Shown here piece after piece: positions 1 through 62,727 of a DNA stretch of 64,000 nt. Source of the DNA: Devosia neptuniae (GTDB lineage: Bacteria; Pseudomonadota; Alphaproteobacteria; Rhizobiales; Devosiaceae). The notes under the pieces are model-generated. The model saw only the letters and a list, made by a program, of their open reading frames with translations, ran no database searches and was not told the DNA's origin. A program made the translations under genes and the position numbers. How positions within the stretch are numbered: position 1 is the stretch's first letter; every line of letters begins with the position of its first letter. The DNA is taken from positions 682,001 through 746,000 of the forward strand of contig NZ_CP104965.1 in the NCBI RefSeq assembly GCF_025452235.1, written 5' to 3'.

Positions 1-719
1 TCCAGCGCCGTGCGGCAGGGCAGCACCAGCTTGGCATAGCGCGACACTGGGCTCATCCATTCATCGGTGATCAGGATGATCTGCGCCCGCCGCGCCGCCA
101 GTTCCCCCGCAGCTTCGAGCAGGCTGGGATCATAGCGCCGCACATCGAACAGTATGGCCGTATCGCCGGGGCGCACGTCGATCATCTGGTCGGCGCGGGT
201 GGCCGGGCGGCCGTCGAAGCGGCGCATGCCGGGGCGGATCAACCGCAAATGCGCTTCCATATAGCCGGCCAGGAAATCGGTGAAGCGGCCGCCGCCCAGA
301 TAGCATTGGCCCTTGGCCTCGGCGATGCGCTGGCACACCGCCTCGAATTCCGACGGCGGGATCAGCCCGGCAGAACCGCGTAGATTATCGGCGGCTTGGC
401 TCACGAACCGATCGAGGAAATGATTGTCGCCACCGGCACCGACATTGGCCGATTGGCCGCGCTGCAAGGGCGATTTGGCGCGCTCCTCCAGCTCATCGCG
501 CAAAGCGCGCTGGAAATCGGGATAGGATTTGTAGCCCAATTGCGAGACGAAACGCAGCACGGTGGCCGAGCTGGCGCCGGCCTGCTGGCCGAATTCGGCG
601 ACGGGGGCCAGGCCCAGTGTGGGATAGGCGCCGAGCAGGCCGCGTGCTGCACGCTTTTCGGCTGGGGTCAGCCGGTGAATGGCATCGTGAATGCGCGCCG
701 CGACGCTTTTTCCCTCCAA
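1..719 (-). CDS. RpiR/MurR-family transcriptional regulator (partial, cut by left edge)
   Basis: Only the N-terminal ~239 codons are in the window; the C-terminus lies beyond base 1. The best start is a TTG at 719, preceded by a run of six G five bases upstream; no ATG occurs before an in-frame TGA. The N-terminal ~75 residues form a helix-turn-helix of the HTH_6 type (segment FGQQAGASSATVLRFVSQLG), and from about residue 115 a SIS sugar-phosphate-binding domain begins (YLLGGGRFTDFLAGYMEAH). RpiR proteins normally sense a phosphorylated metabolite and control a neighbouring catabolic operon. Here it is transcribed away from the amidohydrolase and permease genes, so it is the likely regulator of that cluster. 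The ligand cannot be read from the sequence. Confidence 0.85.
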   Translation of the reverse strand, partial: MEGKSVAARIHDAIHRLTPAEKRAARGLLGAYPTLGLAPVAEFGQQAGASSATVLRFVSQLGYKSYPDFQRALRDELEERAKSPLQRGQSANVGAGGDNHFLDRFVSQAADNLRGSAGLIPPSEFEAVCQRIAEAKGQCYLGGGRFTDFLAGYMEAHLRLIRPGMRRFDGRPATRADQMIDVRPGDTAILFDVRRYDPSLLEAAGELAARRAQIILITDEWMSPVSRYAKLVLPCRTAL

Positions 720-735
720 GATCGCCCCCCGTTTT

Positions 736-753
736 CTGAAATTCAGATTTCAG
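736..753. promoter_or_regulatory. Perfect inverted repeat, candidate RpiR operator
   Basis: CTGAAAT-TCAG-ATTTCAG is a perfect 7-bp inverted repeat with a 4-bp spacer. It lies 17 bp upstream of the RpiR start and about 65 bp upstream of the divergent amidohydrolase gene. A TTGACA hexamer begins at 756, just beside it, and could be the -35 box of the rightward promoter, but no good -10 box is seen at normal spacing. RpiR-type proteins commonly bind short A/T-rich dyads in such divergent regions. That this one is the operator is inferred from position and symmetry. Confidence 0.5.
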
Positions 754-819
754 TATTGACAGATTTTGCAATTACGGAACACTTGATACAGAAGTTAATT
801 GGCCACGCGTAGAGGGAAA

Positions 820-1590
820 GTGGACGTTAGCGCAGAAAAATCGGTTCGAGTTCTCAATGCGCGGGGGCAATCGCCCTTCGTCATCGTATGCGACCACGCC
901 TCCAATCAGCTGCCGGCCAAATATGGCGATCTGGGGCTGAGCCATGCCGAGCGGGTCAGCCATATTGCCTGGGACCCTGGCGCGCTGGCGGTGAGCCGCG
1001 AGCTGTCGCATTTGCTCGATGCGCCCGTGGTGCAATCCACCGTCTCCCGGCTGATCATTGACTGCAATCGCGATCTGGACGCGCCGGATCTGATCTGGAC
1101 GCTGTCGGAGGCAACGCGAATTGCCGCCAATGAGAAAGTCGATGCGGAAGAGCGGCAATACCGCATCACCCATTTCCACAAGCCCTATCACGCCGCGATC
1201 GAAACCCTGCTCGAAGCGCGCCGCCATGCGGGGCAGGAGACGGTGCTGGTCTGCATGCATTCCTTCACGCCGGTCTATCATGGCGTGGCCCGACCCTGGC
1301 CGATTGGGCTGATCCATGGCACCGACACACGCTATACCAAAGGGCTGTTCGATGCGCTCAAGGCCGAAGCACCGCAGCTGAATATCGGCTGGAACGAGCC
1401 CTATGCCGCGCTCAACGGCGTGACGCTGACGCTGGAAAAGCATGGCGATGGCCGCGGGCTCGACGCCACCATGATCGAAATCCGCAATGACGAAATTCTC
1501 GAACCCGCCGGCGTGACCCTCTGGGCCGACCGGCTGGCCCGTTGTCTTGAGGCCGCACGATTGGCGCGGAAAGAGGCGATGGCAGTCTAG
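820..1590 (+). CDS. N-formylglutamate amidohydrolase-family protein
   Basis: A 256-residue protein of the N-formylglutamate amidohydrolase (FGase, HutG-like) fold, cytoplasmic, with typical segments VCDHASNQLP, DPGALAVSREL, STVSRLIIDCNRDLD and MHSFTP that carry the conserved His, Asp, Arg and Asn positions. Family enzymes hydrolyse an amide bond next to glutamate and release free glutamate. The GTG at 820 is preferred because GAGGG lies just upstream, although the spacing is short; a TTG at 799 in the same frame is the alternative. It heads a gene row of permease, glutamine-synthetase-like ligase, aldehyde and alcohol dehydrogenases, and no histidine-utilisation genes are present. The inferred job is therefore final hydrolysis of a gamma-glutamyl intermediate rather than histidine breakdown. 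Confidence 0.75.
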   Translation: MDVSAEKSVRVLNARGQSPFVIVCDHASNQLPAKYGDLGLSHAERVSHIAWDPGALAVSRELSHLLDAPVVQSTVSRLIIDCNRDLDAPDLIWTLSEATRIAANEKVDAEERQYRITHFHKPYHAAIETLLEARRHAGQETVLVCMHSFTPVYHGVARPWPIGLIHGTDTRYTKGLFDALKAEAPQLNIGWNEPYAALNGVTLTLEKHGDGRGLDATMIEIRNDEILEPAGVTLWADRLARCLEAARLARKEAMAV

Positions 1591-1624
1591 ACTCTACCGG
1601 GGCTAACAATCAGGGGACGTGATT

Positions 1625-3139
1625 ATGGCTGAGACAAGGAAGGTCGGCAGTGTCGCCTATGCGACACGCGACAAGGATTATTTCGAAAAACGTGGGCTCA
1701 CCCGCTATGCGGGCATCTGGTCGCTCTGGGCGCTGGGCGTCGGCGCGGTGATTTCCGGCCACTTCTCCGGCTGGAATTTCGGCTTCATGACCGGCGGCTG
1801 GGGCGGCATGGTCGTCGCCGCCGGCATTATCGCCATCATGTATCTGGGCCTGGTCTCATCCATCGCTGAAATGAGCCCGGCTCTGCCCCATACCGGGGCA
1901 GCCTATTCCTTCGCCCGCACTTCGATGGGCCCATGGGGCGGCTTCATCACGGGCCTGTTTGAAAATGTCGAATATGTGCTGACCCCGGCGGTGATCGTCA
2001 CCTTTATCTCGGGCTATTTCGGCTCGATTACCGGGCTCGACACCGCCTATTACCCGATCCTGTGGATCGTGTTCTTCGCCATCTTCCTCGCGCTCAACAT
2101 CTATGGCGTGGCGCTCAGCTACAAGGTCACGCTGGTCGTGACGCTGATCTCGCTGGCGGGCCTGGTGTTCTTCTGGTTCAGCGCCTTCCCCCATATCGAT
2201 TTCTCGCGTTGGGCGCTCAATATCGGCGTCGGCCCGGATGGCGCTGCGGTCGAATTGCCCGAGGGCAATGGCTCGTGGTTCCCCTTTGGCTGGCAAGGTG
2301 TTTTGGCCACCCTGCCCTTCGCGGTCTGGCTGTTCCTTGCCATCGAGCAGGTGCCGCTGGCGGCCGAGGAATCGGTTGATCCCAAGCGCGACATGCCCAA
2401 GGGCATCCTGCTCGGCTTCTGCACGCTGTTGTTGTCAGCGTTCATGATCGTGCTGCTCAACCCATCCATTGCCGGCGTCGGCTCGTTCAGCCTGGGCTCC
2501 TCGCTCGAGCCGGCATTGCAGGGTATCCGCGCCATCTATGGTGACGCTGCTGCGCCGATCTTTGGCATCGTCGCCCTGATCGGTCTGGTCGCTTCTTTCC
2601 ACACCATCCTCTATGCGCAGGGCCGGCAGGTCTATTCGCTCAGCCGGGCGGGCTATTTCCCCTCCGCGCTGTCGGTGACCCATCCCAAATACAAGACGCC
2701 ACATGTCGCCATGGTCTCGGGGGCCCTTTTGGGCTTGGCCGTGATGCTGGTGATCTGGTTCGTCAATGGCGGTGGCGGTGCCGGCGAAACCCAGCTGGGC
2801 GATGACATTATCGGCTCGGTGCTGCTCAACATGGCGGTGTTCGGCGCAATGCTGAGCTACATCATGCAGGCGCTCAGCTTCATCATCCTGCGCCGCAACC
2901 TGCCCAATATCGAGCGGCCGTTCCGCTCGCCGGTGGGCATTCCGGGCGCTGTGCTGACCATCATCATCGCTGCCGTCACCCTGTTCTACCAGCTCCAGGA
3001 CCCGAACTTCTTCAAGGGCGTGATCTGGGTCGTGCTGTGGTGCGCGGTGGGCATCGTCTACTTCGCCATTGTCGGCCGCCACAAGCTGATCATGTCGCCC
3101 GAAGAAGAGTTCGCGCTGGAACACAAGGCCATTGCGTAA
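1625..3139 (+). CDS. eat: APC-family ethanolamine/amino acid permease
   Basis: A 504-residue integral inner-membrane transporter of the amino acid-polyamine-organocation superfamily, with about twelve hydrophobic segments. The N-terminal stretch RYAGIWSLWALGVGAVISGH and the following FSGWNFGF resemble ethanolamine permeases more than general amino acid permeases. It probably imports ethanolamine or another small amine by proton or cation symport. ATG 1625 is chosen because GGGGA lies about eight bases upstream; a GTG at 1619 is also in frame. It sits 34 bp behind the amidohydrolase gene and 77 bp ahead of the glutamine-synthetase-like gene, so it is probably in one operon with them. The substrate is inferred from resemblance and neighbours. 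Confidence 0.8.
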   Translation: MAETRKVGSVAYATRDKDYFEKRGLTRYAGIWSLWALGVGAVISGHFSGWNFGFMTGGWGGMVVAAGIIAIMYLGLVSSIAEMSPALPHTGAAYSFARTSMGPWGGFITGLFENVEYVLTPAVIVTFISGYFGSITGLDTAYYPILWIVFFAIFLALNIYGVALSYKVTLVVTLISLAGLVFFWFSAFPHIDFSRWALNIGVGPDGAAVELPEGNGSWFPFGWQGVLATLPFAVWLFLAIEQVPLAAEESVDPKRDMPKGILLGFCTLLLSAFMIVLLNPSIAGVGSFSLGSSLEPALQGIRAIYGDAAAPIFGIVALIGLVASFHTILYAQGRQVYSLSRAGYFPSALSVTHPKYKTPHVAMVSGALLGLAVMLVIWFVNGGGGAGETQLGDDIIGSVLLNMAVFGAMLSYIMQALSFIILRRNLPNIERPFRSPVGIPGAVLTIIIAAVTLFYQLQDPNFFKGVIWVVLWCAVGIVYFAIVGRHKLIMSPEEEFALEHKAIA

Positions 3140-3216
3140 GGGCTAGGTTCTACTCCCGCTCGCGATGCCGGAGGGGCATTGCGGGCGGGCAAGCCACAAA
3201 AACAAACGAGGGAAAT

Positions 3217-4578
3217 ATGGCCTATTCACTGGAAGAGCTGCGCGAGGATGTCGCTGCCGGCAGGATCGATACCGTGCTCGTGGCCTTCCCCGACATGCAA
3301 GGCCGCATGATCGGCAAGCGCTTCCAGGCCGAGTATTTTCTCGAAACCGCCCATGACGAAACCCATGGCTGCGATTACCTCTTGGCCGACGACATCGATA
3401 TGGAGCCGGTGCCCGGCTATGAGGCAGCCAATTGGGCCAAGGGTTATGGCGATTTCGTCATGAAGCCGGACCTGACCACCCTAATGAAGGCCAGCTGGCT
3501 CGAAGGCACGGCCATCGTGCTGTGCGATCTGAGCGATCATCACCATCACGAACCCATTCCGCATTCGCCGCGCGCCATTCTCAAGGCCCAGATCGAGCGG
3601 CTCTCGGCCATGGGCTATACCGCCAATGCGGCGACCGAGCTCGAATTCTACCTGTTCGACGACGATTATCGCACGATCAGCCAGAAGGGCTATCGGACGG
3701 CCCAGACGGCGGGAGACTACATCCAGGATTACCACATCTTCCAGACCACCAAGGAAGAAGGCGTGATGCGCGCCCTGCGCAAGCATTTGCAGGCCTCGGG
3801 CATTCCGGTGGAGAGCTCCAAGGGCGAGTGGGGCCCGGGCCAGGAAGAGATCAACGTTAGATATTCGGACGCGCTGACAATGGCCGACCGCCATGTCGTG
3901 CTCAAGAATGCCACCAAGGAAATCGCCTATGCCCAGGGCAAGGCCGTGACCTTCATGGCCAAGTGGGATTATGCGCTGGCCGGCTCGTCGAGCCATATCC
4001 ACATGTCGCTGGCCGATAAATCGGGCAAGCCGTTATTCGTCGATGGCAAGGACGAGCGCGGCATGAGTGCGCTGATGAAGCATTTCATGGCCGGGCAATT
4101 GGCCTATGCCCGCGACATCACCTATTTCCTCGCGCCCTATATCAATAGCTACAAGCGCTTTCAGGCCGGCACATTCGCGCCCACCAAGGCGATCTGGAGC
4201 CCGGATAACCGCACCGCCGGCTTCCGCCTCTGCGGCGAACATTCCAAAGCCATCCGCGTCGAATGCCGCATGGGCGGGGCTGACCTCAACCCCTATCTCG
4301 CCATCGCCGCGCTGATCGCCGCCGGCATCAAGGGCATCGAAGACAAGCTCGAGCTTGAACCCGCCTTTGTCGGCGACGCCTATGTGACCAAGAATCTGCG
4401 CGAAATTCCCAAGACCCTGCGCGAAGCCATCGAAACACTGCGCCAGTCGAGCATGCTCAAAGAGGCGCTTGGCGAACAGGTGATCGGCCATTACGTGCAT
4501 ACGGCGGAATGGGAACAGGCAGAATATGATCGCCGCGTGACCGATTGGGAACTCAAACGCGGGTTCGAGCGGAGCTAG
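3217..4578 (+). CDS. Glutamine synthetase-like gamma-glutamyl-amine ligase
   Basis: A 453-residue ATP-dependent ligase of the glutamine synthetase family. It carries the beta-grasp N-terminus and the catalytic domain with ELEFYLF, GPGQEEINVRYSDAL, SSSHIHMSL and WSPDNRTAGFR, which supply metal, glutamate and ATP ligands. The C-terminal part lacks the NLYDLPPEE-like adenylylation loop of GlnA, as is common in relatives such as PuuA, IpuC and Streptomyces GlnA4, which attach glutamate to amines instead of ammonia. ATG 3217 follows a good CGAGGGA site. Placed between an ethanolamine-type permease and aldehyde/alcohol dehydrogenases, it most likely makes gamma-glutamylethanolamide or a similar gamma-glutamyl amino alcohol. 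Ordinary nitrogen assimilation is less likely in this setting. Confidence 0.85.
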   Translation: MAYSLEELREDVAAGRIDTVLVAFPDMQGRMIGKRFQAEYFLETAHDETHGCDYLLADDIDMEPVPGYEAANWAKGYGDFVMKPDLTTLMKASWLEGTAIVLCDLSDHHHHEPIPHSPRAILKAQIERLSAMGYTANAATELEFYLFDDDYRTISQKGYRTAQTAGDYIQDYHIFQTTKEEGVMRALRKHLQASGIPVESSKGEWGPGQEEINVRYSDALTMADRHVVLKNATKEIAYAQGKAVTFMAKWDYALAGSSSHIHMSLADKSGKPLFVDGKDERGMSALMKHFMAGQLAYARDITYFLAPYINSYKRFQAGTFAPTKAIWSPDNRTAGFRLCGEHSKAIRVECRMGGADLNPYLAIAALIAAGIKGIEDKLELEPAFVGDAYVTKNLREIPKTLREAIETLRQSSMLKEALGEQVIGHYVHTAEWEQAEYDRRVTDWELKRGFERS

Positions 4579-4616
4579 CGCGATCCACCCAAGCCCGTCC
4601 ACCCCACCGGGCTCTT

Positions 4617-4687
4617 CCTCGGGCTTGACCCGAGGACCACTTTGACCGCACGCCAGTCCACGAGTGACCCTCGGGTCAAGCCCGAGG
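4617..4687. repeat. Paired palindromic repeat (REP/BIME-like, family A)
   Basis: Two 19-bp palindromes, CCTCGGGCTTGACCCGAGG (4617-4635) and its reverse complement CCTCGGGTCAAGCCCGAGG (4669-4687), are separated by 33 bp. Each has 7-bp arms and a 5-base loop; the loops read CTTGA and TCAAG. The pair can fold as two small hairpins or one long one. It lies between the ligase and the aldehyde dehydrogenase, and matches the design of the element at 6158-6234. Confidence 0.8.
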
Positions 4688-4739
4688 GCGAGCGCGGTGC
4701 TGGGGCGGAACGGTGCCACAAGTTTTAGAGGCCAATAGC

Positions 4740-6122
4740 ATGACCGAAACGATCAAAATCATCTCGCCCATCGACGGCTCTGTCTATGCCGAGCGCCCGC
4801 TCGCCAGCGGCGCCGAAATCTCGGCCGCCGTCACCCGCGCCAAGGCGGCACGACTGGGCTGGGGGGAGCTGACCATTGCCGAGCGCGGCAAGATCGTTTC
4901 CCATTTCGTCGATGCGCTGCTGGGTATGAATGACGAGATCGTGCCTGAACTGGCCTGGCAGATGGGCCGCCCGATCCGCTTCGGCGGAGAAAAGCGGGGC
5001 GTCGAAGAACGCGCGCGCTATATGATCGACCTGGCCGCCGAAGCCCTCGCTCCGGCCGAAAAGACCGGCAAGGAAGGCTTTACCCGCTATATCACCCGCG
5101 AGCCGCTGGGCACGGTCATGGTCATTGCGCCCTGGAACTACCCCTTCCTCACCGCGGTCAATTCCATCATCCCGGGGCTGATGGCGGGCAATGCCATCAT
5201 TCTCAAACATGCCAGCCAGACGCTGCTGGCCGGCGAGCGCTTTGCCGCTGCCGCGCGCCAGGCCGGCCTGCCCGAGGGCCTTTTCCAGAACCTGGTGCTT
5301 GGCCATGCCGATACCGAAAAGCTGATCGCCTCGGGGCAGATCGACCACATCAATTTCACCGGCTCGGTCGAGGGGGGACGCCGCATTGAGCAGGCCGCTG
5401 CTGGTACGTTTGCGACATTGGGGCTCGAGCTGGGCGGCAAGGACCCCGCCTATGTGCGCGAGGATGCCAATGTGGCCAATGCAGTCGAAAACCTGGTCGA
5501 TGGCTCGTTCTTCAATTCCGGGCAGAGCTGCTGCGGCGTCGAGCGCATCTATGTGCATGCCTCGATCCACGACGATTTCGTCGCCCGCTTCATCGACAAT
5601 GCCAAGGGTTGGACGCTGGGCAATCCGCTTGATGCCGACACCATTGTCGGGCCCATGGCGCGCGGCAGCTTCGCCGATCACGTCCGCCAGCAGACCGAAG
5701 AGGCCGTGCGCGGCGGGGCGACGCGGCATCTCAATTCCAAACATGCGCTCGACAAACCCGGCTCGCCTTATCTGGCGCCCGAAGTGCTCACCGGCGTCAA
5801 TCACCAGATGAGCGTGATGCGCGAAGAGAGCTTCGGCCCGGTCGTCGGCATCATGAAAGTGGCCGACGACGCCGAGGCCGTCACCCTGATGAATGACAGC
5901 CCCTATGGCCTGACCGCCTCGATCTGGACGCAGGATCTCGACACCGCCGCCAAGCTGGGCGCCAAGATCGAGACCGGTACGGTCTTTGCCAATCGCTGCG
6001 ATTATCTCGATCCGGCTCTGGTCTGGACCGGGGTGAAAGACACCGGCAAGGGCGGCGGCCTCAGCGAAATCGGTTACGCGAACCTTAGCCAGCCCAAGTC
6101 GTTTCATCTGAAGCGGGTTTAA
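4740..6122 (+). CDS. NAD(P)-dependent aldehyde dehydrogenase
   Basis: A 460-residue aldehyde dehydrogenase superfamily enzyme. The general-base glutamate is E230 in LELGGKDP and the nucleophile is C264 in NSGQSCCGVER; APWNYP marks the cofactor-binding region. ATG 4740 gives the natural N-terminus (MTETIKI). In this cluster it should oxidise the aldehyde formed by the neighbouring alcohol dehydrogenase. If the substrate is ethanolamine, that step would turn a gamma-glutamyl aminoacetaldehyde into gamma-glutamylglycine. The gene follows the ligase after a 160-bp gap that holds a REP-like pair. The enzyme class is firm; the substrate is inferred from neighbours only. Confidence 0.9.
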   Translation: MTETIKIISPIDGSVYAERPLASGAEISAAVTRAKAARLGWGELTIAERGKIVSHFVDALLGMNDEIVPELAWQMGRPIRFGGEKRGVEERARYMIDLAAEALAPAEKTGKEGFTRYITREPLGTVMVIAPWNYPFLTAVNSIIPGLMAGNAIILKHASQTLLAGERFAAAARQAGLPEGLFQNLVLGHADTEKLIASGQIDHINFTGSVEGGRRIEQAAAGTFATLGLELGGKDPAYVREDANVANAVENLVDGSFFNSGQSCCGVERIYVHASIHDDFVARFIDNAKGWTLGNPLDADTIVGPMARGSFADHVRQQTEEAVRGGATRHLNSKHALDKPGSPYLAPEVLTGVNHQMSVMREESFGPVVGIMKVADDAEAVTLMNDSPYGLTASIWTQDLDTAAKLGAKIETGTVFANRCDYLDPALVWTGVKDTGKGGGLSEIGYANLSQPKSFHLKRV

Positions 6123-6157
6123 TTCCGGGGAGCCCCCACCGCTCCCCGTCCATCGTC

Positions 6158-6234
6158 ACCACCGGGCTTGTCCCGGTGGTCAATGCCGCCGCCAGCGCGA
6201 TCCCGCGATGGATTGCCGGGACAAGCCCGGCAAT
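6158..6234. repeat. Paired palindromic repeat (REP/BIME-like, family A)
   Basis: Two 23-bp palindromes with 9-bp arms and 5-base loops occupy 6158-6180 (loop CTTGT) and 6212-6234 (loop ACAAG). Their cores, CCGGGCTTGTCCCGG and CCGGGACAAGCCCGG, are reverse complements, so the two copies lie head to head. The element separates the aldehyde dehydrogenase from the iron alcohol dehydrogenase and shares its plan with 4617-4687. Confidence 0.8.
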
Positions 6235-6279
6235 GACGGCGGTGCAGGGGCCAGTGGCCCCCAAACAACGAGGCCCAAA

Positions 6280-7434
6280 ATGACCAAAGCCAACTGGAAC
6301 TACCCCACCGCTATCAAGTTTGGCCCCGGCCGCATCGCTGAACTGCCCGAAGTGCTGAAGGCCACCGGCATTACCAAGCCGCTATTCGTCACGGACGCCG
6401 GTCTCGTCAATCTGCCGGTGACGCAAAAGACCATCCAGCTGCTGAGGGATGCGGGCATTCCGGTGGGTGTCTTCGCCGAGGTGAAACCCAATCCGATCTC
6501 GGCCAATGTGGAAGCCGGCATCAAGGTTTTGCGCGAGGGCGGGCATGATGGCGTCATCGCCTTTGGCGGCGGCTCTGGCCTCGATGTGGGCAAGGTCATC
6601 GCCTTCATGGCCGGCCAGACCCGCCCGATGTGGGATTTCGAGGACATTGGCGATTGGTGGACCCGCGCCGATCCCAAGGGGATTTTCCCGATCATCGCCG
6701 TGCCGACCACGGCAGGAACCGGCTCGGAAGTCGGCCGCGCCGGTGTCATCACGGACGAAACGACGCATACCAAAAAGGTCATCTTCCACCCCCTGATGAT
6801 GCCAAAGGTGGTGATTGCCGATCCCGAATTGACGGTGGGCATGCCCCGCTTCATCACCGCGGGCACCGGCATGGATGCGCTGGCCCATTGCCTCGAAGCC
6901 TATTGCGCGCCGGGCTATCACCCGCTGGCCGATGGCATTGCGGTGGAAGGCATTCGGCTGGTGTTCGAAAACCTGCCCAAGGTCGTGGCCGACCCCAACG
7001 ATGTCGAAGCACGCGGCCATATGATGAGCGCGGCAGCCATGGGCGCCACCGCCTTCCAGAAGGGACTGGGCGCCATCCACGCGCTGAGCCACCCGGTGGG
7101 CGCGCTCTATGACACCCATCACGGCATGACCAATGCGGTGTTCATGCCCTATGTGCTGATGGTCAATAAGCCAGTCATCGAAGCCAAGATCGCCCGGCTG
7201 GCCGCGTATCTGGGCCTGTCGCCAACCTTTGAGGCGTTCCTGCACGCAGTGATCGGCCTGCGCCTGCGGCTCGACGTGCCGCATACCCTGGCCGAGTTCA
7301 AGGTGGATGGCAGCAAACGCGAGTTGATCGGGGATATGGCGATTGTCGATCCCACGGCGGGGGGCAATCCGGTGGAACTGACCAAGGCGCGGGCGCTGGA
7401 GATTTTCGATCGGGCGATGGAGGGAAGGGTTTAG
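6280..7434 (+). CDS. Iron-containing alcohol dehydrogenase
   Basis: A 384-residue cytoplasmic group III (Fe-type) alcohol dehydrogenase. The N-terminal dinucleotide domain has FGGGSGLDVGK, and the C-terminal metal domain has GMDALAHCLEAY, AIHALSHPVGALYDTHHG and neighbouring positions that supply the usual Asp and three His ligands. ATG 6280 (MTKANWNYP) fits the family N-terminus, with AACGAGG upstream. It is the last gene of the putative amino-alcohol cluster and would oxidise the hydroxyl group of the gamma-glutamylated substrate before the aldehyde dehydrogenase acts. The assignment to this pathway is inferred from gene order. Confidence 0.85.
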   Translation: MTKANWNYPTAIKFGPGRIAELPEVLKATGITKPLFVTDAGLVNLPVTQKTIQLLRDAGIPVGVFAEVKPNPISANVEAGIKVLREGGHDGVIAFGGGSGLDVGKVIAFMAGQTRPMWDFEDIGDWWTRADPKGIFPIIAVPTTAGTGSEVGRAGVITDETTHTKKVIFHPLMMPKVVIADPELTVGMPRFITAGTGMDALAHCLEAYCAPGYHPLADGIAVEGIRLVFENLPKVVADPNDVEARGHMMSAAAMGATAFQKGLGAIHALSHPVGALYDTHHGMTNAVFMPYVLMVNKPVIEAKIARLAAYLGLSPTFEAFLHAVIGLRLRLDVPHTLAEFKVDGSKRELIGDMAIVDPTAGGNPVELTKARALEIFDRAMEGRV

Positions 7435-7435
7435 A

Positions 7436-7553
7436 ATACCCCCTCCTAACCTCCCCCTGATAGGGGGAGGGATCTCTCCACTCTTGGAACCTGATCGAGT
7501 TCTAGCCACAAGGCGGTCCCTCCCCCTGTCAGGGGGAGGCTAGGAGGGGGTAT
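7436..7553. repeat. Large intergenic inverted repeat (family C)
   Basis: Arms 7436-7470 and 7519-7553 are near-perfect reverse complements. Each arm contains a palindrome of the type CCTCCCCCTG-AN-AGGGGGAGG next to a CTAGGAGGGGG-like tail. The element fills the space between the convergent ends of the iron alcohol dehydrogenase and the mannitol-dehydrogenase-family gene, where it could act as a two-way transcription stop. Related copies are at 26158-26424 (interrupted) and 54626-54648 (single). Confidence 0.8.
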
Positions 7554-7557
7554 CCTC

Positions 7558-61710: not shown

Positions 61711-62727
61711 CTAACCCATACCGCCGCTTGCTGCGCCGCCAGGTCCAAAAATCTTGATCGCGGCCGGGGCCAGGATGACGATGAACAGCACCGGCAGGAA
61801 GAACAGGATCAGCGGTACGGTCAGCTTGGGCGGCAGGGAAGCGGCTTTCTTTTCGGCTTCCATCATGCGTGCTTCGCGACCTTCCTCGGCCATGACGCGC
61901 AACGCCTGGCCGACGGAGGTGCCGTAGCGGTCGGCCTGGATCAGCGCGGTCATCACCGAGCGCACATTATCGAGCCCGATGCGGCGGCCCAGATTGTCAT
62001 AGGCGCGGGTGCGGTCTTCGAGGAAGGACAGCTCGGCCGTGGTCAGGGTCAGCTCTTCGGCCAGTTCGGCGCTTTGCTGGCCGATCTCCCGCGCGACGCG
62101 CTTGAAGGCGTGTTCCATCGACATGCCGGCCTCAACGCAGAGCAGCAGCAGATCGAGGCAATCGGGCCAGGCGCGGCGGATGGAGAATTGGCGTTTGCTC
62201 GTCGTGTTCTTGAGCAAAAGAATAGGCAGATAGGAGCCGACAATGCCCGCCCCGATCGAATAGACCAGGTTGAGATAAAGCGGGCGGCCGCCGGGTGCGA
62301 GCACCATCAGATAGAGCGCGGCGAACAGGAAGATACCGAGCGGCGTGGCAAGGCGCATGAACAGGAACGTGGTCAAATGTCCCTGCCCGCGGAAACCGGC
62401 CATGGCGAGCTTGTCGACGGTAGCATCGTCCTGAAATGCTTTTTTCAGGTCGAACCGCTCGACCACTTTTTTCATGTAGGACTTGGTTTCGCCGGCCCGC
62501 CTGATGGAGCCGCGCCCTTCCCCGCCATTGGAGGCAAGACCCCGCAACCGGGCCATTTCCTCCGCGCGCATCTTGTCGCGCTCCAGCGCCACCCGGCGAA
62601 TGCGCGTCTTCATTTCCGATCTGACGATGAAGGACGAGCCGAAGGTATAGACGATGGCGGCGGCGGAGATGGCCGCCAGAATGGCGATGAGCGATTCCCG
62701 CTGGGTCAGCATTTCGACGATGTTCAT
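61711..62727 (-). CDS. tadC: Flp/Tad pilus assembly membrane protein TadC
   Basis: A 338-residue inner-membrane platform protein of the type II secretion F (GspF) superfamily. Features are an N-terminal membrane segment (ILAAISAAAIVYTFGSSFIV), the T2SSF domain with LLLLCVEAGMSMEHAFKRVA and VRSVMTALIQADRYGTSVGQ, and C-terminal segments (PLILFFLPVLFIVILAP). With TadB it forms the base on which the TadA ATPase acts. It lies 16 bp downstream of tadB. The tadD-like gene converges on it. Confidence 0.93.
   Translation of the reverse strand: MNIVEMLTQRESLIAILAAISAAAIVYTFGSSFIVRSEMKTRIRRVALERDKMRAEEMARLRGLASNGGEGRGSIRRAGETKSYMKKVVERFDLKKAFQDDATVDKLAMAGFRGQGHLTTFLFMRLATPLGIFLFAALYLMVLAPGGRPLYLNLVYSIGAGIVGSYLPILLLKNTTSKRQFSIRRAWPDCLDLLLLCVEAGMSMEHAFKRVAREIGQQSAELAEELTLTTAELSFLEDRTRAYDNLGRRIGLDNVRSVMTALIQADRYGTSVGQALRVMAEEGREARMMEAEKKAASLPPKLTVPLILFFLPVLFIVILAPAAIKIFGPGGAASGGMG

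Follow-up and report, generated by a model that had tools for sequence, protein, structure and literature searches.

A conserved γ-glutamylation-type operon, probably for ethanolamine, in Devosia neptuniae with an APC permease and a predicted RpiR operator

Gene content of the locus

We examined a 64,000-nucleotide stretch of the Devosia neptuniae genome (the window; C2:682001-746000 of 4.7 Mb), whose first 7434 positions very probably hold an ethanolamine catabolic operon that works through γ-glutamylated intermediates. A divergent gene for an RpiR/MurR-family regulator starts at position 719 on the minus strand. Across a 100-bp gap from it, five plus-strand genes follow in the order FGase-family hydrolase, APC permease, glutamine-synthetase (GS)-like ligase, aldehyde dehydrogenase (ALDH) and iron-containing alcohol dehydrogenase (Fe-ADH) (Table 1). 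This row had been proposed in a first-pass annotation, and both order and families are borne out by the open reading frames and by profile scores (FGase PF05013, 145.6 bits; AA_permease_2, 118.2; Gln-synt_C, 345.3; Aldedh, 391.5; Fe-ADH, 169.3). The starts listed for the five genes are the likely ones; for the hydrolase, GTG 820 is preferred because the alternative TTG 799 has no counterpart, as judged by eye, in the related locus L034.

Table 1. Positions of genes and predicted regulatory elements in the window
Feature	Position	Strand	Length	Basis or remark
RpiR/MurR-family regulator (HTH_6 + SIS)	1..719	-	281 aa	3' 127 bases lie beyond the window; full gene L003:9874-10719
Predicted RpiR operator, palindrome CTGAAATTCAGATTTCAG	736..753	none	18 bp	motif models on homologous gaps
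TTGACA, putative -35-like box just past the operator	756..761	+		sequence; conservation in homologous gaps
FGase-family hydrolase, probable γ-glutamylglycine amidohydrolase	820..1590	+	256 aa	from GTG 820; PF05013; same position in relatives
APC permease akin to ethanolamine permease (Eat)	1625..3139	+	504 aa	profile scores, locus context
GS-like ligase, probable ethanolamine γ-glutamylase	3217..4578	+	453 aa	Gln-synt_C, identity, active site
ALDH, probable γ-glutamyl-aminoacetaldehyde dehydrogenase	4740..6122	+	460 aa	Aldedh
Fe-ADH, probable γ-glutamylethanolamide dehydrogenase	6280..7434	+	384 aa	Fe-ADH

Besides the ligase, the genome carries a single GS-domain gene, which looks like a normal GlnA. 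It also has two more genes of the FGase family, one of which scores far more strongly for that family (254 bits). EutB found no match in the genome in a search that, among 14 control genomes, matched only E. coli, in agreement with the earlier statement that EutBC is absent.

The ligase and the proposed route

The ligase is 58.6% identical over 447 columns to the protein of PDB 5dm3, which we take to be the Chromohalobacter salexigens enzyme, whereas its identity to E. coli PuuA is 28.7% and to the GlnA of its own genome 27.8%. At the position of the GlnA flap Glu (presumably E327), an alignment places Phe in all 121 cluster ligases, Tyr in PuuA and Trp in a divergent ligase described below (L230); eight other active-site positions that we checked are invariant. 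At the D50 site of GlnA (E in 97, D in 21 and A in 3 of the 121) the alignment is unsure, and this site was not used. A bulky aromatic residue in place of the ammonia-site Glu would suit an amine as the acceptor.

These properties bear on two other ways of reading the gene. It might simply be a second glutamine synthetase with unrelated neighbors, given its Gln-synt_C domain and the name glutamine synthetase (family) wherever it is annotated in the lists of relatives. However, the genome has its own GlnA, the flap Glu is replaced throughout the cluster ligases, FGase, ALDH and Fe-ADH accompany the ligase in 50 of 70 loci, and the protein falls below the cut-offs for type I and type III glutamate-ammonia ligases (245.9 vs 429.15 bits and 246 vs 469.6 bits), so that we give this reading practically no credence. 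A Puu-like polyamine route through γ-glutamylputrescine would likewise bring together a GS-like ligase, an ALDH and an amide hydrolase, and the ligase does weakly match the γ-glutamylputrescine synthetase model NF045547, at 196.2 bits against a cut-off of 650. This route is nonetheless very improbable: the cluster genes include neither a PuuB-type oxidase nor a PuuD-type hydrolase, an Fe-ADH would be expected to act on an alcohol and not on an amine, and the identity to PuuA is low. Both readings were rejected on profile scores, identities and the flap residue.

The first-pass annotation had interpreted the row as one complete route ending in glutamate and glycine, and this is still the best reading, because of the gene order, the closeness of the ligase to PDB 5dm3, the settings in which the permease occurs and the change in the ligase active site. 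The permease would import ethanolamine, which the ligase, with ATP, would join to the γ-carboxyl of glutamate to give γ-glutamylethanolamide. The Fe-ADH would then oxidize the alcohol to the aldehyde and the ALDH would convert the aldehyde to γ-glutamylglycine. Finally, the FGase-family enzyme, which scores below the cut-off for HutG N-formylglutamate deformylase (TIGR02017; 36.2 vs 278.75 bits), would hydrolyze γ-glutamylglycine to glutamate and glycine. Control of the operon may lie with the divergent RpiR protein, acting through the palindrome CTGAAA-N6-TTTCAG beside the TTGACA box; most simply it would be a repressor, relieved by the substrate or by a γ-glutamyl intermediate.

The genes bhcB and bhcC belong to the β-hydroxyaspartate cycle, which uses glycine and glyoxylate. 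Matches to them adjoin the cluster in P. pantotrophus and Roseovarius mucosus (bhcBCD at L095 12038-15125; bhcC/bhcB in L110), a neighborhood that fits glycine as the pathway product. In the Devosia genome BhcC has only 36% and 31% matches, and therefore we infer no β-hydroxyaspartate cycle there.

Conservation of the gene set

The ligase was searched against 199 genomes of the order, and 104 of them matched at E 1e-60 or better. Of the named relatives in the 120 best ligase matches, most are Devosia. We fetched 86 loci, comprising all listed ligase matches that reach 50% identity in genomes other than that of the window, and 70 of these had full flanks (at least 4.5 kb upstream and at least 3.5 kb downstream of the ligase). 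Partner genes were counted within 6.5 kb of the ligase by tblastn queries that may miss divergent partners. Among the 70 loci, an FGase is found in 56, an ALDH in 55, an Fe-ADH in 59 and an RpiR gene in 52; the three enzymes occur together in 50, and RpiR joins them in 46. Conservation in relatives, which the first-pass annotation had put forward as a test of its proposal, is thus evident.

The order RpiR, FGase-type hydrolase, transporter, GS-like ligase, ALDH, Fe-ADH is that of the window, and it is found with a different APC permease on pSymB of S. meliloti and in R. leguminosarum, and with TRAP genes in P. denitrificans and Ruegeria. It is the recurrence of this order across genera that speaks for reading the genes as a unit. 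A second set of relatives, the best 80 of 590 confirmed ones ranked against the 5dm3 sequence, leans to the Rhodobacterales; C. salexigens is absent from these 80, where the nearest entry is Vreelandella arcis (Halomonadaceae), at 84%.

Two loci show a Na+/Pi cotransporter with a PhoU domain adjoining the cluster (L102 5482-7155; L103 6543-8243), a possible link to phosphoethanolamine use. On a plasmid of Paraburkholderia sabiae (L098), a GS-like ligase (60%) lies amid genes annotated as 2-aminoethylphosphonate-pyruvate transaminase, homoserine O-succinyltransferase and γ-glutamyl-γ-aminobutyrate hydrolase family; this ligase relative seems to belong to a different pathway.

Relation to known systems

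The operon of Phaeobacter sp. MED193 (Westermann et al. 2023) is given in the Fig. 5 legend of PMC10132767 as RpiR-GGAH-EtoVWX-ETAGA-GAADDH-GETADH. Its products are γ-glutamylglycine amidohydrolase, EtoV, EtoW, EtoX, ethanolamine γ-glutamylase, an aldehyde dehydrogenase and γ-glutamylethanolamide dehydrogenase. The operon has the same regulator class, FGase-type hydrolase, ligase, ALDH and alcohol dehydrogenase in the same order as the window, but a TRAP transporter, EtoVWX, where the window has one APC permease. The assignment of GGAH as FGase-type is judged by its position; the same-order records from P. denitrificans and Ruegeria annotate an N-formylglutamate amidohydrolase there. The binding protein EtoX and four enzymes are raised on phosphoethanolamine (Table 2 of PMC10132767), and purified EtoX binds ethanolamine with a Kd of 7.9 uM. 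The MED193 genes are called closely related to C. salexigens and Agrobacterium tumefaciens genes demonstrated by Vetting et al., and the route of C. salexigens and A. tumefaciens C58 is cited as a demonstrated ethanolamine utilization pathway (both via PMC10132767); in C. salexigens it uses the TRAP binding protein Csal_0678, in contrast to the APC permease of the window.

The GlnA4 cluster of Streptomyces (PMC6529630) likewise has a γ-glutamylethanolamide synthetase, an ALDH, a putative transporter and a proposed amidohydrolase, but a short-chain dehydrogenase instead of the Fe-ADH, and EtuRI as regulator. An FGase-family γ-glutamylglycine amidohydrolase is proposed for this route, and the Fig. 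2 legend names orf5 a glutamine amidotransferase. Thus, of the first-pass interpretation, the complete route is still the best reading but had already been described in relatives (PMC10132767), and two features offered as new details have precedents in these papers: an FGase-type last hydrolase belongs to the MED193 operon and is proposed for Streptomyces, and an RpiR gene is part of the MED193 operon. The E. coli Puu pathway shares the γ-glutamylation logic, with an ALDH and a hydrolase, but differs in its oxidase PuuB and hydrolase PuuD. The ammonia-lyase route of EutBC also acts on ethanolamine and can have a related Eat permease beside it, but differs in depending on an enzyme without a match in the Devosia genome.

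An exchangeable importer

EtoVWX, a feature of the described operon, is missing from the operon of the window, where the APC permease takes its place. Across the 50 full clusters, the transporter is of TRAP type in 32, a TIGR00907-like APC permease in 8 and the window-type APC permease in 3, with none recognized in 7. Over 317 residues, the two APC types share 21% identity. The transporter label was followed on a ligase tree of 121 rows, 26 of 147 being omitted because the transporter could not be assigned or the ligase piece was too short; the TRAP label of L134, which rests on a 28% match, is doubtful. Counting each gain or loss, the label changes 16 times in total, with three changes for the window APC type and at least four for the other. 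Clustering of the window type on the tree is weak, since 17 of 500 shuffles were as low in changes and only four rows carry it. As the transporter varies on the ligase tree, we treat it as a variable rather than a defining part of the operon. No paper on an APC-permease version turned up in literature searches, which reached few subscription papers.

Matches to the window permease occur in 25 of the 199 genomes, and 24 permease loci were examined (its own, L034, L035, L063 and L227-L246; the 25th, in G152, was left out). Four lie within this operon type, four have a divergent ligase, an ALDH and an Fe-ADH as neighbors (L229, L230, L231, L235), and four adjoin EutB/EutC (the L233 permease is 65% identical, those of L242-L244 37-39%); permease kin beside EutBC are also seen in a P. 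aeruginosa record. The EutBC neighbors speak for ethanolamine as the probable substrate.

A predicted RpiR operator

To the gap between the RpiR and FGase genes we applied motif models built on 97 homologous gaps of less than 500 bases, each with 30-base margins. The exact dyad TGAAA-N6-TTTCA occurs in 14 of them, and no dyad occurs more than twice in one shuffled copy. With a palindromic model derived from a random half, 48 of 49 held-out gaps contain a site above the 95% shuffle mark and 43 of 49 one above the 99% mark. A model trained on loci L100 and up has its best site, taken over the entire locus, within the gap for 43 of 44 other loci, and reverse training does so for 45 of 53, compared with averages of 6.7 and 5.8 and maxima of 18 and 13 for 60 column-permuted models. 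It counts against these results that the start seed came from the whole gap set, that the two locus sets are not strictly separate clades, and that in many Rhodobacterales loci the best site includes TTGACA. TTGACA is present in 81 of the 97 gap sequences, margins included. In the window, the palindrome CTGAAA-N6-TTTCAG is separate from the TTGACA box, and we predict it to be the site that the RpiR protein binds. We found no description of an RpiR operator for this operon in literature searches, and none is given for the MED193 operon in the accessible parts of PMC10132767; it is the new element here.

An exact search, which weaker operators would escape, finds CTGAAA-N6-TTTCAG at one other place in the genome, positions 62431-62448 of the window. 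This copy was rejected as a regulon member because it lies inside a T2SSF-type reading frame, and it is likely due to chance.

Substrate and integrity of the operon

Several observations weigh against a strict unit devoted to ethanolamine. Of the 70 ligase loci, 20 have an incomplete set of the three partner enzymes, and in eight of these the whole set is missing. In a sister-genus genome (G056; L238, 5718-12281), FGase, permease and ALDH genes occur without ligase, Fe-ADH or RpiR there. L229-L231 and L235 combine RpiR, an APC permease (64-74%), a ligase only 33-37% identical, ALDH and Fe-ADH in a cluster without an FGase, and L232 has permease, ALDH and Fe-ADH without a ligase. Half of the 24 permease loci (12) lie elsewhere or in partial clusters, outside the operon, divergent-ligase and EutBC settings. 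The nearest NCBIfam model of the permease is the ethanolamine permease TIGR00908, whose cut-off of 381.75 bits the permease misses with a score of 331.9; a stretch of 466 aa from the L233 permease, an EutBC neighbor, misses it too (367.5 bits). For the Fe-ADH, the nearest model is 4-hydroxybutyrate dehydrogenase, again with a score below the cut-off.

The G056 locus lies between a PPK2 gene and a gene of the mannitol-dehydrogenase family and, with the match to the window's PPK2-like neighbor judged by eye, looks like a cluster at the same chromosomal site, either a remnant or one of changed function; G056 has two other GS-like genes elsewhere. The divergent ligases of L229, L230, L231 and L235 constitute a second ligase lineage in the same setting, with FGase-family genes elsewhere in those genomes. 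The operon can therefore lose or swap parts, and some lineages may have moved to another substrate.

It is also conceivable, though unlikely, that the same chemistry serves another amino alcohol (alaninol, 1-amino-2-propanol or 3-aminopropanol) or a short alkylamine. The flap change counts against no acceptor but ammonia, the Fe-ADH is similar to 4-hydroxybutyrate dehydrogenase, and a divergent ligase occurs beside the same kind of permease and dehydrogenases. Conversely, the same-order MED193 operon is phosphoethanolamine-induced and includes an ethanolamine-binding protein (PMC10132767), permease kin adjoin EutBC, and the bhc genes beside two clusters fit a glycine product. Ethanolamine thus remains the favored substrate.

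Downstream of the Fe-ADH gene lie fructuronate-reductase-like, KDG-kinase-like, DUF924 and zinc-dehydrogenase genes, apparently no part of this operon. At positions 4605-4699, between the ligase and ALDH genes, and 7433-7556, after the Fe-ADH, there are inverted repeats (arms of 37 and 40 nt) that resemble dispersed repeats or terminators.

Implications

On the best reading, the locus encodes a genuine ethanolamine route, conserved and described before, in a version with another importer and a predicted operator. More tentatively, and with rather less confidence than we would place in an even chance, the operon may be built so that its importer, and even its ligase, can be replaced. Three importer types (one TRAP, two distinct APC) and two ligase lineages would then be combined with RpiR regulators, the 18-bp operator would overlap or adjoin the promoter, and the SIS domain of RpiR would sense a γ-glutamyl intermediate rather than a sugar phosphate. 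With the predicted operator, the signal to which an SIS-domain RpiR protein responds in amine catabolism could be approached directly. Marine and halophilic bacteria are described as having the pathway with a TRAP importer, and on the reading above Hyphomicrobiales have it with other importers. Counts of ethanolamine users that rely on etoX only, such as the ocean counts in PMC10132767, would therefore miss such genomes.

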